DNA from: a virus
Strand: one strand, 5' to 3'
Length of the DNA: 27,161 nt
IMG/VR virus record: IMGVR_UViG_3300037961_006151
Coordinates: 4,727 to 31,887 of that record
Both the position numbers and the translations under genes were made by a program. The notes below the pieces were generated by a model, which was not told where the DNA came from, did no database searches, and worked only from the letters and a program-made list of their open reading frames with translations. How positions within the stretch are numbered: position 1 is the first letter of the stretch; every line of letters begins with the position of its first letter. Of this stretch, positions 18,851 to 23,240 are shown piece after piece.

Positions 18851-18917
18851 TGGCGTACCGGAGAATGAGGTTTTCTGCGGGCACTGCCCGGCTACTTACA
18901 GGATAGCCGCTTTCTAA

Positions 18918-20326: not shown

Positions 20327-20857
20327 TCAGCCGCGCTCCACGCGGACGGAATAGTTGGAGCCACCCATACGGCAGTAAGGGCCGAGGTAGGTGGCTACCC
20401 AGGGGAATACGTCGAAAATGTTGTTGACCAAGCTGGCAGTTTGGGACTTGGTGTTGTACTTAACTTCGAGGTCACCCAGCTTGACTTCCTCGTAGACGCC
20501 ATCGGTGCCTTTGCTGCCGATAACTGCGTCAGTGTCGTTGGCAAGAGCGCGTGCCAGTTCAAAAGCCGCGATCTTGACTTCGTCGGGAATAAAAGTGCAC
20601 TTGATGTCAACGCCGTCGACTTTGTACTCTTTGCGGGGCCATTTCAGTGCTTGAGTGGTCGTGCAACGGGTGCCGTAATACGTCAGGCCGTCGAGCCAGG
20701 TGGTGGCTGAAATGATGGCGCGGTTTTTCTGGTCGTCAGTTTTGTCGTCCCAGTTCGCGCTACTTGGGACGGTTTCAAAGTATGAGTTTGCCTCGGCCAG
20801 CGTCACGTAGCTGTTGGCCGCAGTGCCTTGAAGAGTGGCGTCAATTGTTGCGGCCAC
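20327..20857 (-). CDS. Head-tail adaptor (DnaT-like/DUF family), 176 aa
   Basis: Residues about 18-50 (YVTLAEANSYFETVPSSANW, then AIISATTWLDGLTYYG) and the QALKWPRKEY motif match the family often labelled DnaT-like ssDNA-binding protein in phage annotations. In this location it is a helical head-tail adaptor bound below the portal. A mid helix PDEVKIAAFELARALANDTD and the C-terminal R-x-G-G-S-N-Y-S-V-R-V-E-R-G complete the pattern. The start codon is GTG at 20857, with an AAAAAGG stretch about 12 bases upstream. The ssDNA-binding label should not be taken as evidence of a replication role. Confidence 0.78.
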   Translation of the reverse strand: MAATIDATLQGTAANSYVTLAEANSYFETVPSSANWDDKTDDQKNRAIISATTWLDGLTYYGTRCTTTQALKWPRKEYKVDGVDIKCTFIPDEVKIAAFELARALANDTDAVIGSKGTDGVYEEVKLGDLEVKYNTKSQTASLVNNIFDVFPWVATYLGPYCRMGGSNYSVRVERG

Positions 20858-20860
20858 GGT

Positions 20861-21043
20861 TTAATACAACCTTTTTCTGAGTCTAGCTTTGGTCTTCTTT
20901 GCCGGTTTGGGTAGCACGCAGGCGTGGTAAACCGTTCCACCGGATAGTTCGATTTGGGCTTGGTGCTCGCCTAAGTCGCTGTTTGGTACGTCAATAAAAC
21001 TTTTTGTGTTATTGGTCAGAATGAAGAGTCGCACTAATTCCAT
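20861..21043 (-). CDS. Small hypothetical protein, 60 aa
   Basis: I do not recognise this gene. The product starts MELVRLFILTNNTKSFIDVP, continues with a beta-like SGGTVYHACVLPKP and ends in a very basic tail (KKTKARLRKRLY). The ATG at 21043 overlaps the start of the opposite-strand helix-turn-helix gene base for base (cATg). The frame could extend upstream to residue -49, but that part is antisense to the plus-strand gene and looks like its shadow. It sits just before the adaptor, with 3 bases between them, so it belongs to the connector operon. Function unknown; a connector or decoration role is possible. Confidence 0.55.
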   Translation of the reverse strand: MELVRLFILTNNTKSFIDVPNSDLGEHQAQIELSGGTVYHACVLPKPAKKTKARLRKRLY

Positions 21044-21326
21044 GACAGCCCAAAAGTCTGATTCAGATGCCTGCAGCGTAAAGAAGCCTGCTACTAAAGC
21101 TTGTGGGTTGAAAAAACCCGCAGCAGACAAGCCCCGGAAATGGTCCGACGTCAGCAAGCAAATTGTGGAGCTGAGGTCCAAAGGAGTCACTGTTCCAGAG
21201 ATTGCTGCTGAGTTGAAGCTGAACTACGCGCTGGTGAACCAGCACTGCTTGCGGTCGTACAAGATGACTATTCGTAGTCAGGAAGTGTTTGACCGCTGGG
21301 AGAAAAACCGGCTCGGATTGGCCTGA
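21042..21326 (+). CDS. Helix-turn-helix DNA-binding protein on the opposite strand, 94 aa
   Basis: This is the only convincing plus-strand gene. Residues about 37-72 (SDVSKQIVELRSKGVTVPEI, then AAELKLNYALVNQHC) form a clear helix-turn-helix of the kind found in small regulators and terminase small subunits. Residues 11-30 are two decapeptide repeats, CSVKKPATKA and CGLKKPAADK, giving a Lys/Pro-rich histone-like tail. I chose the ATG at 21042; an upstream ATG at 21021 would add seven residues (MKSRTNS). No good ribosome binding site precedes either. The gene lies convergent to the capsid gene, with a terminator between them, and divergent from the 60-codon gene. It is probably a DNA-binding regulator or nucleoid-type protein; its target is unknown. 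Confidence 0.7.
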   Translation: MTAQKSDSDACSVKKPATKACGLKKPAADKPRKWSDVSKQIVELRSKGVTVPEIAAELKLNYALVNQHCLRSYKMTIRSQEVFDRWEKNRLGLA

Positions 21327-21334
21327 TAGGCAAG

Positions 21335-21357
21335 AAAAAAGCCCCCTTTCGGGGGCT
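21335..21357 (-). terminator. Rho-independent terminator after the major capsid gene
   Basis: On the minus strand AGCCCCC (21357-21351), loop GAAA, GGGGGCT, then TTTTT. It lies 28 bases past the capsid stop. In the plus direction the same hairpin lacks a T-tract, so it serves mainly the leftward transcript, although it could also slow rightward polymerases leaving the helix-turn-helix gene. Confidence 0.9.
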
Positions 21358-21384
21358 GCAGCTCCTGTGTTCCTCTTGAGGTTA

Positions 21385-22494
21385 TCAGGAGTATGCGGTG
21401 CTGTCGAAGGGGGTGTTGACCAGCAGACGCACGATGGGAACCATCTTGGTCGTGGAGAACACCAAGCCCCAGCTGCTGGTGTTGGCCAGGTTGCCGGAGG
21501 TTGCGGCGTTGGTGGGGTTGTCGCCTGCGGCGGACCACTTGGTGCCAGTGATGTGGAAACCGTAGTGGTAATCCACAGCCAGGATGTCCTGCATGGACAG
21601 GATGTTCCGGTCGGCGGCGAGGCGCAGATCCTGTTGGATGCCCTCGGAAACAACGCCAGACTTGAACATGTAGACGGGGTACTTCACCGCGTGGGTAGCG
21701 GTACCACCGGTCAGGTAGGACAGCTGGTCGTCGATAACGACGCGCAGACCAGCGAAGGTTGCGACTTCGGGGTTACCGACGCCGACACCGCCGCCACCCC
21801 AGGTCACTGCGCCAGAGGCAGACAGTGCAGAGGTGCTGAACACCAGCATTCCGATCTGTTGCAGGTAGTAAGCAACGGCGGAGTGCATGGCGATCGTGTC
21901 GATCTCTTCGCCACGCTCACCCAGCAGGTTCTTGGCTTCCAGGACGTTGCCAACGGAGATGTAGTTGGCTTCGGCAGGGGTTGCGCCTGCAACGGAAGCG
22001 TCGTACTGGTTGGGTCCAAGGACGCCAGCGGCGGTAATGCCACCGAACAGACCCAGCAGCTGGGACTTCAGGGTGGAAGTCTTCAGCTTGTTGATTGCTG
22101 CGGTCAGCTGGTTGCGGACGTGAGCGAGGGGGTCAGCTCCGGATCCGAGCTTGCTGAGATCATCTGCGGCGTAGCTGAAGCCACGGTGCAGGATCGTCAT
22201 GATCTGCTCGTCGGCGGAGGTGCCCTGAGGGGTCAGGTAACCAGCGCCACCGGTGCCCCAGGTCGCGTTGCTGAGGATTTGCTCCTCAGTGGGGTTGATG
22301 GGGTCATGGAACGGCACACGCACGCGAGTACCGCCGGCACGGGCATCCAGAGCGGCGTTGCGCTGGATGATGCCGCTTTGCACCCACTTCGATTGCTCGA
22401 AAATGCCTTCAGAGGTGTACTGAAGGAATTCGGGGCGGGTAACAAGATCCGACAGAAAAGTTCCGCCGGAATAGTTTTCGGAGATAGCAGCCAT
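21385..22494 (-). CDS. Major capsid protein (HK97 fold expected), 369 aa
   Basis: Forms the icosahedral head shell. The gene follows the scaffold gene and is followed by a strong terminator, the standard context. The N-terminus reads MAAISENYSGGTFLSDLVTR; then come NAALDARAGGTRVRVPFHDP and an L-x-G-x-F-GG-ITAAG segment. A long helix near residues 195-210 precedes DTIAMHSAVAYYLQQIG, a pattern of coat proteins of this group. Near the end DYHYGFHITGTKW, DNPTNAATSG and SSWGLVFS recall the SPTNAEL..NW region of related coat proteins. There is no N-terminal delta domain of the HK97 cleaved type, consistent with a separate scaffold gene. The ATG at 22494 has only a weak AGG upstream. Confidence 0.88.
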   Translation of the reverse strand: MAAISENYSGGTFLSDLVTRPEFLQYTSEGIFEQSKWVQSGIIQRNAALDARAGGTRVRVPFHDPINPTEEQILSNATWGTGGAGYLTPQGTSADEQIMTILHRGFSYAADDLSKLGSGADPLAHVRNQLTAAINKLKTSTLKSQLLGLFGGITAAGVLGPNQYDASVAGATPAEANYISVGNVLEAKNLLGERGEEIDTIAMHSAVAYYLQQIGMLVFSTSALSASGAVTWGGGGVGVGNPEVATFAGLRVVIDDQLSYLTGGTATHAVKYPVYMFKSGVVSEGIQQDLRLAADRNILSMQDILAVDYHYGFHITGTKWSAAGDNPTNAATSGNLANTSSWGLVFSTTKMVPIVRLLVNTPFDSTAYS

Positions 22495-22529
22495 CGGAAG
22501 GGCCTAAAAGAGTGTTTGCGGATGTCCCA

Positions 22530-23240
22530 CTAGGACGAACGGCCAGCTTCAGCTTTAAGTAACCGGGCTTTTTCTGGATCCTTGCTCAGAAGAATCATCT
22601 GCTCGGTGACGTTAAAACTGTCCTTCAACCACGGGTTGGACTGGCCAGGAAGAGCGGTACTACGGGCACTACCCGCAACACCCATTCCGGCGGTATTTGT
22701 AGCTGCGAAGTGATGCTCGTAGCCACTGCCGGGATTTTTTAGGTTGGCCACATACTCGGCCACCGGAGTTTCTACGCCGCCAATAACAGCCACAGGCTGT
22801 CCATCTTTTGAACGCAGATTGTCCTCAACTAGACGATACAGCTGGTCCGGTGCTAGTGCACCAGCACTCGACAACTGAGAAATAGCAGCTGCCTTGAGTT
22901 GCTCTTTTGAGTAACCCTGGCGGATTTGCTCTACTTCCGACTCTTTGTCGGCCAGTTGTTGCTTCAGTGTTGTAATCGTCTGCTGAGCGTCTTCCCAAAG
23001 CGTCTTGTACTCGCCGGATTCGGCAAGTTTTGCGTCTTGGGCTTGTTTTTGGGCGGCCTGAACTGCGTCAAGTTGCTGTTGCAGCTTTTCGCGGTTCTCT
23101 TTGTCCTTTCGACGCTCGTTAATAAGCTCGAAATTCTTGGCCTTGAGTGCCTCAAGTTGAGCGCTGAGATCTTCAGTTCCAGCCACAGGCTGAGCAGGTG
23201 CGTTCTCCACAGGAGGTTGCGCTTGCTGTTCTTCAGACAC
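22530..23240 (-). CDS. Capsid scaffold protein, 236 aa
   Basis: Placed between portal and major capsid genes. The N-terminus is Gln/Pro/Ala-rich (MSEEQQAQPPVENAPAQPVA), followed by a long charged coiled coil (residues about 25-115: LSAQLEALKAKNFELINERR, QQLDAVQAAQ, LKQQLADKESEVEQIRQ). After it come helical SAGALAPDQLYRLVEDNL, a Gly-rich linker, and a C-terminal helix LSKDPEKARLLKAEAG suited to binding the coat protein. All of this is characteristic of phage scaffolds that leave the procapsid. No catalytic Ser/His protease motif is visible, so it is not a protease-scaffold fusion. The start is GTG at 23240, 22 bases past the portal stop, without a clear ribosome binding site. Confidence 0.85.
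   Translation of the reverse strand: MSEEQQAQPPVENAPAQPVAGTEDLSAQLEALKAKNFELINERRKDKENREKLQQQLDAVQAAQKQAQDAKLAESGEYKTLWEDAQQTITTLKQQLADKESEVEQIRQGYSKEQLKAAAISQLSSAGALAPDQLYRLVEDNLRSKDGQPVAVIGGVETPVAEYVANLKNPGSGYEHHFAATNTAGMGVAGSARSTALPGQSNPWLKDSFNVTEQMILLSKDPEKARLLKAEAGRSS

Follow-up and report, generated by a model that had tools for sequence, protein, structure and literature searches.

A conserved pair of divergent small genes, one encoding a predicted helix-turn-helix protein, at the boundary of the capsid and neck/tail units in a likely cyanophage

The late genes of phages are usually drawn as one-way operons, and the accessory genes with their own promoter that lie between structural genes are referred to as morons. 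The lytic and lysogenic promoters of P2-like phages lie face to face, 40-60 bp apart (PMC7498355). Here, we describe a viral locus whose layout is a variant of these themes, namely a divergent regulator, face-to-face promoters (putative at this locus) and accessory genes between structural genes, the variant itself being new. As in the P2/186 switch, two small genes diverge and their inferred promoters would face each other, here with about 45 bp between the inferred starts; the likeness is limited to layout. The present pair differs in lying between the capsid and adaptor genes rather than in an early control region, in having start codons that overlap in the tetranucleotide CATG and in having its putative promoters inside the opposing coding sequences. 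It also differs in belonging to a record without a detected tyrosine integrase, a search for the PF00589 Phage_integrase domain giving no match in the 48.4 kb while the control genomes matched.

The stretch of DNA that was analysed (the window, 27,161 nucleotides) spans positions 4727-31887 of a 48,428-base virus record, IMGVR_UViG_3300037961_006151. Late genes run leftward and a rightward early module occupies approximately 34-48 kb of the record, outside the window, so that the helix-turn-helix (HTH) gene described below has early-gene orientation. Among named phages, marine virus AG-345-A17 (47%) and cyanophage S-2L (41%) come nearest by capsid protein, and the record encodes ThyX as well as a sigma factor whose best-fitting subfamily is the cyanobacterial RpoD-like one (TIGR02997, E 3.4e-72, short of the curated cut-off; G000 46331-47194, or L165 14331-15194, plus strand); on these grounds, the host is likely to be cyanobacterial. 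The same HNH endonuclease sequence occurs at both ends of the record (G000 97-405 and 48156-48428; L163, L165); the two ends of the contig therefore probably overlap, and it may be complete.

The HTH gene, 94 codons from an ATG start (21042-21326, plus strand), is flanked on one side by the major capsid (head) protein gene (21385-22494, minus strand; phrog_247, E 8.5e-43), which ends the upstream unit and is followed by a leftward intrinsic terminator (21340-21357, minus strand; AGCCCCC-GAAA-GGGGGCT, then a T run). On the other side, beyond a 60-codon gene termed mn60, the head-tail adaptor gene Ad1 (20327-20857, minus strand; phrog_477, E 2.9e-37) is the first gene of the neck/tail unit. The first-pass annotation of this DNA had placed a 94-codon plus-strand gene between the capsid terminator and the connector genes, which the open reading frame, the hairpin at 21357-21340 and the two profile matches bear out, but had set it inside a virion operon, whereas it stands at a terminator-marked break between units. 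The hairpin and T-run are kept in relatives with and without the HTH/mn60 pair, their stem sequences having changed; this conserved leftward terminator puts the pair at the boundary between two late units, and transcription of the neck/tail genes must accordingly start anew or depend on read-through. For rightward transcripts, the window hairpin has no T-run; in many relatives, the hairpin also has an A-run before it and could stop transcripts in that direction. On the same side of the capsid gene, some relatives carry a gene for an HNH_3 endonuclease (Pfam match at E 2.3e-14) inserted between the capsid and HTH genes (L078, 1441-1977); similar gaps are found in L045, L049, L068, L072 and L085, and the 3' flank of the capsid gene resembles a site of homing-endonuclease insertion.

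The 94-codon gene is real. A profile scan of viral contigs gave 160 stretches encoding relatives of its 94-residue product, the best 80 of which were kept, as were the best 80 loci from each of the capsid and adaptor scans. Among the best 80 of 160, which reach down to approximately 34% identity, the gene keeps its place and orientation, the adaptor gene adjoining it in all 80 and the capsid gene being visible too in 78, which is the synteny that the first-pass annotation had proposed examining. That annotation had also named lack of conservation, or a dN/dS near 1, as what would tell against the gene; the protein is conserved, with a median dN/dS of 0.26 over 72 distinct coding sequences and values of 0-0.2 for the 12 most similar pairs that could be used. 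Conservation runs from end to end, with invariant residues also outside the HTH core. A start at an ATG 21 nt upstream is disfavoured, being missing in many relatives. No other plus-strand reading frame in the window is gene-like, the longer ones sitting opposite virion genes; a 414-codon frame that stays open opposite the full length of the capsid gene (21289-22533, plus strand) is probably an effect of codon usage. No DNA match of the region to annotated phages was found, nor any protein relative in them beyond one chance-level match; searches of bacterial and archaeal species genomes, made with a limited set of patterns, returned no relative of either the HTH protein or mn60, and the HTH protein gave no alignment with a 64-residue frame beside the terminase gene, checked as a possible paralogue.

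The helix-turn-helix that had been read in the product from its sequence is supported by an AlphaFold2 model, in which helices at residues 34-46, 51-58 and 62-70, at pLDDT above 80 (block means of 81-86 across residues 31-70), form a tri-helical core (34-70), preceded by a basic, low-confidence N-terminus (1-33) and followed by a C-terminal helix (79-91). The predicted fold is that of a DNA-binding HTH protein; its best structural neighbours are the HTHs of Tc3 transposase, resolvase and paired domains (Z of about 5), and the best rows of a PDB sequence search are a designed repeat protein and Sleeping Beauty transposase. The protein reaches no curated Pfam cut-off, and its matches in Pfam and PHROG are weak, mostly to generic HTHs of varied families. 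Among the PHROGs, it weakly matches 323 (D5-like transcriptional regulator, E 8.3e-06) and 3855 (HTH DNA binding protein, E 0.0016), both over the HTH part; the profile of PHROG 323 is 319 positions long, of which only 132-189 are matched, and most family members are without this match (it is found in 4/40).

These weak matches to HTH and transcription-regulator profiles include no head or packaging family, which tells against a role for the protein in packaging or as a DNA-binding component of the virion that is merely encoded on the other strand. Such a role, which we regard as improbable, would suit the adjoining capsid and connector genes, the basic N-terminal tail and the divergence of the gene, which tracks that of the capsid gene (Spearman 0.72, compared with 0.66 for mn60) more than that of the adaptor gene (0.33). 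Against it stand also the orientation opposed to the virion genes and the existence of sister phages that have the same neck genes without the HTH gene. A homing endonuclease of which only the HTH domain is left is a very remote prospect: a few members weakly match homing/HNH endonuclease profiles and some relatives have the HNH_3 gene inserted beside the HTH gene, but there is no nuclease domain in the protein, and its end-to-end conservation, invariant residues outside the core and purifying selection are unlike those of a remnant.

Although it is the only gene-like plus-strand reading frame in the window, the HTH gene is not as lone as had been described, as it shares its start with mn60 (20861-21043, minus strand). 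This divergent partner is conserved in 74 distinct loci, is 60-65 codons long across relatives and is under purifying selection (median dN/dS 0.33). There is no space between the two genes: the ATG of the HTH gene on the plus strand and that of mn60 on the minus strand overlap by two bases in CATG (21041-21044) in 74/74 distinct loci having both genes, and the tetranucleotide is also found in 79 of the 80 profile matches kept for the HTH protein (best 80 of 160). One locus in which BLAST missed mn60 (L046) has the overlapping starts too, while a divergent relative (L215) keeps the HTH gene and has no mn60. As CATG is used by both genes, neither start can shift or change without harming the other, and its conservation shows that both starts are used, not by itself that anything is regulated. 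A longer leftward frame overlapping the HTH gene (20861-21190) was rejected, the leftward frame of several relatives starting at the CATG ATG. The first-pass annotation missed mn60 and the overlap, together with the promoter-like elements buried in the two genes and the absence of the pair from sister phages.

The model of mn60 (pLDDT 89) is a small beta-beta-alpha-beta domain with a basic C-terminal tail. Its top PDB neighbours are the phycobilisome linker domains CpcD/ApcC (Z 5.9, Foldseek E 0.025), with T7 Gp2, through which that phage inhibits the RNA polymerase of its host, nearly level (Z 5.5). Sequence profiles favour neither: even with E values as high as 10 allowed, the linker family PF01383 has no match in the record, and none of 36 mn60 members matches it. 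At such scores, these matches may simply reflect a common small fold; a host-directed function is possible on the strength of the modelled likeness, and either resemblance would be of interest in a cyanophage.

Sister phages, whose capsids are 46-55% identical, have the terminator after the capsid gene and neither the HTH gene nor mn60. Their capsid-adaptor gap is 62-116 bases in most and 236 in two, compared with approximately 500-550 here. In cyanophage S-2L, at 41% capsid identity, a connector gene comes after the capsid gene, and neither gene of the pair was found in the stretches read of S-2L and AG-345-A17. On the capsid tree, presence and absence of the pair each cluster, with a long branch between them, the tree being poorly resolved inside. 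The HTH gene is accordingly accessory, and general late expression does not depend on the pair. A subset of sister phages has a -10-like TTAAACTGAAACAAAGC or TACACT approximately 23 nt before the GTG of the adaptor gene, which the end of mn60 (CTARACTCAAACAAAGG) resembles; the pair thus probably occupies the interval from the terminator to a neck promoter that predates it and is now probably part of the mn60 coding sequence.

The pair shares with morons its insertion between genes that nearly adjoin in sister phages, and its conserved promoter-like boxes may be counterparts of a moron's own promoter; it may have arrived with its promoters as such a cassette, acting on host or other phage functions rather than on the neck/tail unit. 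We consider this unlikely, though worth keeping in view: a G+C of 0.49, below the 0.61 of the capsid gene, and the modelled likeness of mn60 to phycobilisome linkers and to T7 Gp2, each suggestive of a host target, would agree with it. The same G+C is, however, near that of other nearby genes (0.48-0.55), the fold matches of mn60 are weak and lack sequence support, and a leftward box is positioned to serve the neck genes too. Compared with morons, this is a fused divergent pair that a large group keeps throughout and that may be wired into the neck/tail unit; its hairpin is a good leftward terminator that could serve both directions in some relatives.

As there is no room between the two genes for promoters, codon choice was examined at positions where the amino acids are common to relatives, by comparison with 1000 synonymous-codon shuffles over clusters drawn at 85% identity; the clusters are related by descent and the motif sought, TAnnnT, is short. 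HTH codons 12-13 are mostly AGC GTA, so that the other strand reads TACGCT, a leftward -10-like box (21075-21080, minus strand) 37 nt before the mn60 ATG. TAnnnT is found at -37 to -34 from that ATG in 74/74 loci, and the box falls in the same alignment column in 29/34 clusters, the shuffles giving at most 7. Facing it, mn60 codons 10-12, which in many relatives read TTATCCTG on the HTH strand, hold a rightward box (21010-21015, plus strand) 32 nt before the HTH ATG, with TAnnnT at -32 in 70/74 loci and in 31/32 clusters (at most 22 in the shuffles). This element gives some substance to the suggestion that the orientation of the gene implies a promoter of its own, although TATCCT or similar, the form of most relatives, is replaced by a degenerate TATTGG in the window copy. 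A third box, TAGACT (20880-20885, minus strand), lies at the end of mn60, approximately 22 nt before the adaptor start, where codons 53-55 give TARACT across relatives, in 32/32 clusters against at most 13 in the shuffles. That these boxes inside opposing genes act as promoters is our reading of codon conservation. A sigma-70 consensus scan of the region found no promoter and no -35 box was seen; no operator-like repeats common to relatives were found at the locus, and an Rfam search gave no match. Elsewhere in the HTH gene, codons 70-85 (21258-21300) also show excess codon conservation, with TAC for Tyr73 in 70/72 and an over-conserved GTG for Val82, which no promoter-like box there accounts for.

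A nearly invariant stretch lies before the major tail protein gene (18880-18908, minus strand), with GCTAWCCTGTA leading into a short perfect hairpin, AGCCGGGCAGTGCCCGC. It is shared by 64 distinct loci, those of sister phages among them, and is probably a late promoter with a 5' leader element; its GCTAWCCTGTA closely resembles the rightward HTH box. The sigma factor encoded by the phage is a candidate recogniser of such -10-only boxes.

The reading that we favour, and to which we give an even chance, is that the HTH protein is an autoregulated small DNA-binding regulator of neck/tail transcription, its promoters, target and function all being inferred. Standing at the boundary of the capsid and neck/tail units and reading away from the latter, the HTH gene would carry in its codons 12-13 the leftward promoter serving mn60 and the neck genes, while mn60 codons 10-12 would carry the rightward promoter serving the HTH gene. 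With starts placed approximately 7 nt after each -10, at about 21022 rightward and 21068 leftward, the two would lie face to face some 45 bp apart, such that the transcripts would share approximately 45 nt of complementary leader and the polymerases would interfere. For a protein encoded divergently from the neck/tail unit, with interleaved promoters, the simplest role is regulation of that region and of itself: it would bind there, limit its own synthesis and determine when or how strongly the neck/tail genes are transcribed. The sign could be either, with the neck/tail genes held back until capsid is made or boosted; binding site, sign and regulated unit are each inferred. A regulatory role, as the first-pass annotation had suggested, is plausible from the way the gene diverges from the neck/tail unit.

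In support of this autoregulated regulator are the conserved place and orientation (80/80 among the best 80 of 160), the low dN/dS, the predicted HTH fold with its weak regulator matches, and the shared CATG (74/74) with synonymous constraint exactly at the -10-like boxes in both directions, to which may be added the resemblance of the rightward box to the one before the major tail protein gene, the conserved upstream terminator and the phage-encoded cyanobacterial-type sigma factor. Weighing on the other side are the shortness of TAnnnT in related sequences, the lack of a -35 box or sigma-70 consensus, the TATTGG of the window and the lack of conserved operator repeats, as well as sister phages without the pair, the HTH gene without mn60 in L215 and profile matches that are weak and varied.

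Two further possibilities turn on the overlapping leaders. The first, a late head/tail switch in which HTH protein and polymerase collision jointly set the ratio or timing of capsid versus neck/tail production, we put forward only tentatively; it would consist of two tiny genes fused at CATG, with mutual promoters and complementary leaders, in a phage with no tyrosine integrase detected. The second makes the rightward transcript itself the main agent, with the mn60/neck leader or the capsid mRNA as the target of its antisense action. It has little probability in our view: the inferred leaders do overlap by approximately 45 nt, and the window copy has no good rightward terminator between the HTH gene and the capsid antisense strand, but the protein sequence is under purifying selection, and the hairpin, which in many relatives also has an A-run before it, could stop rightward transcripts there.

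For late gene expression, a conserved, opposed regulator between the capsid and neck/tail units would let head and tail production be tuned separately. Fused starts with mutually embedded boxes would make this a compact natural case of transcription interference and of selection on overlapping signals, and synonymous-site tests of the kind used here could reveal buried promoters elsewhere.
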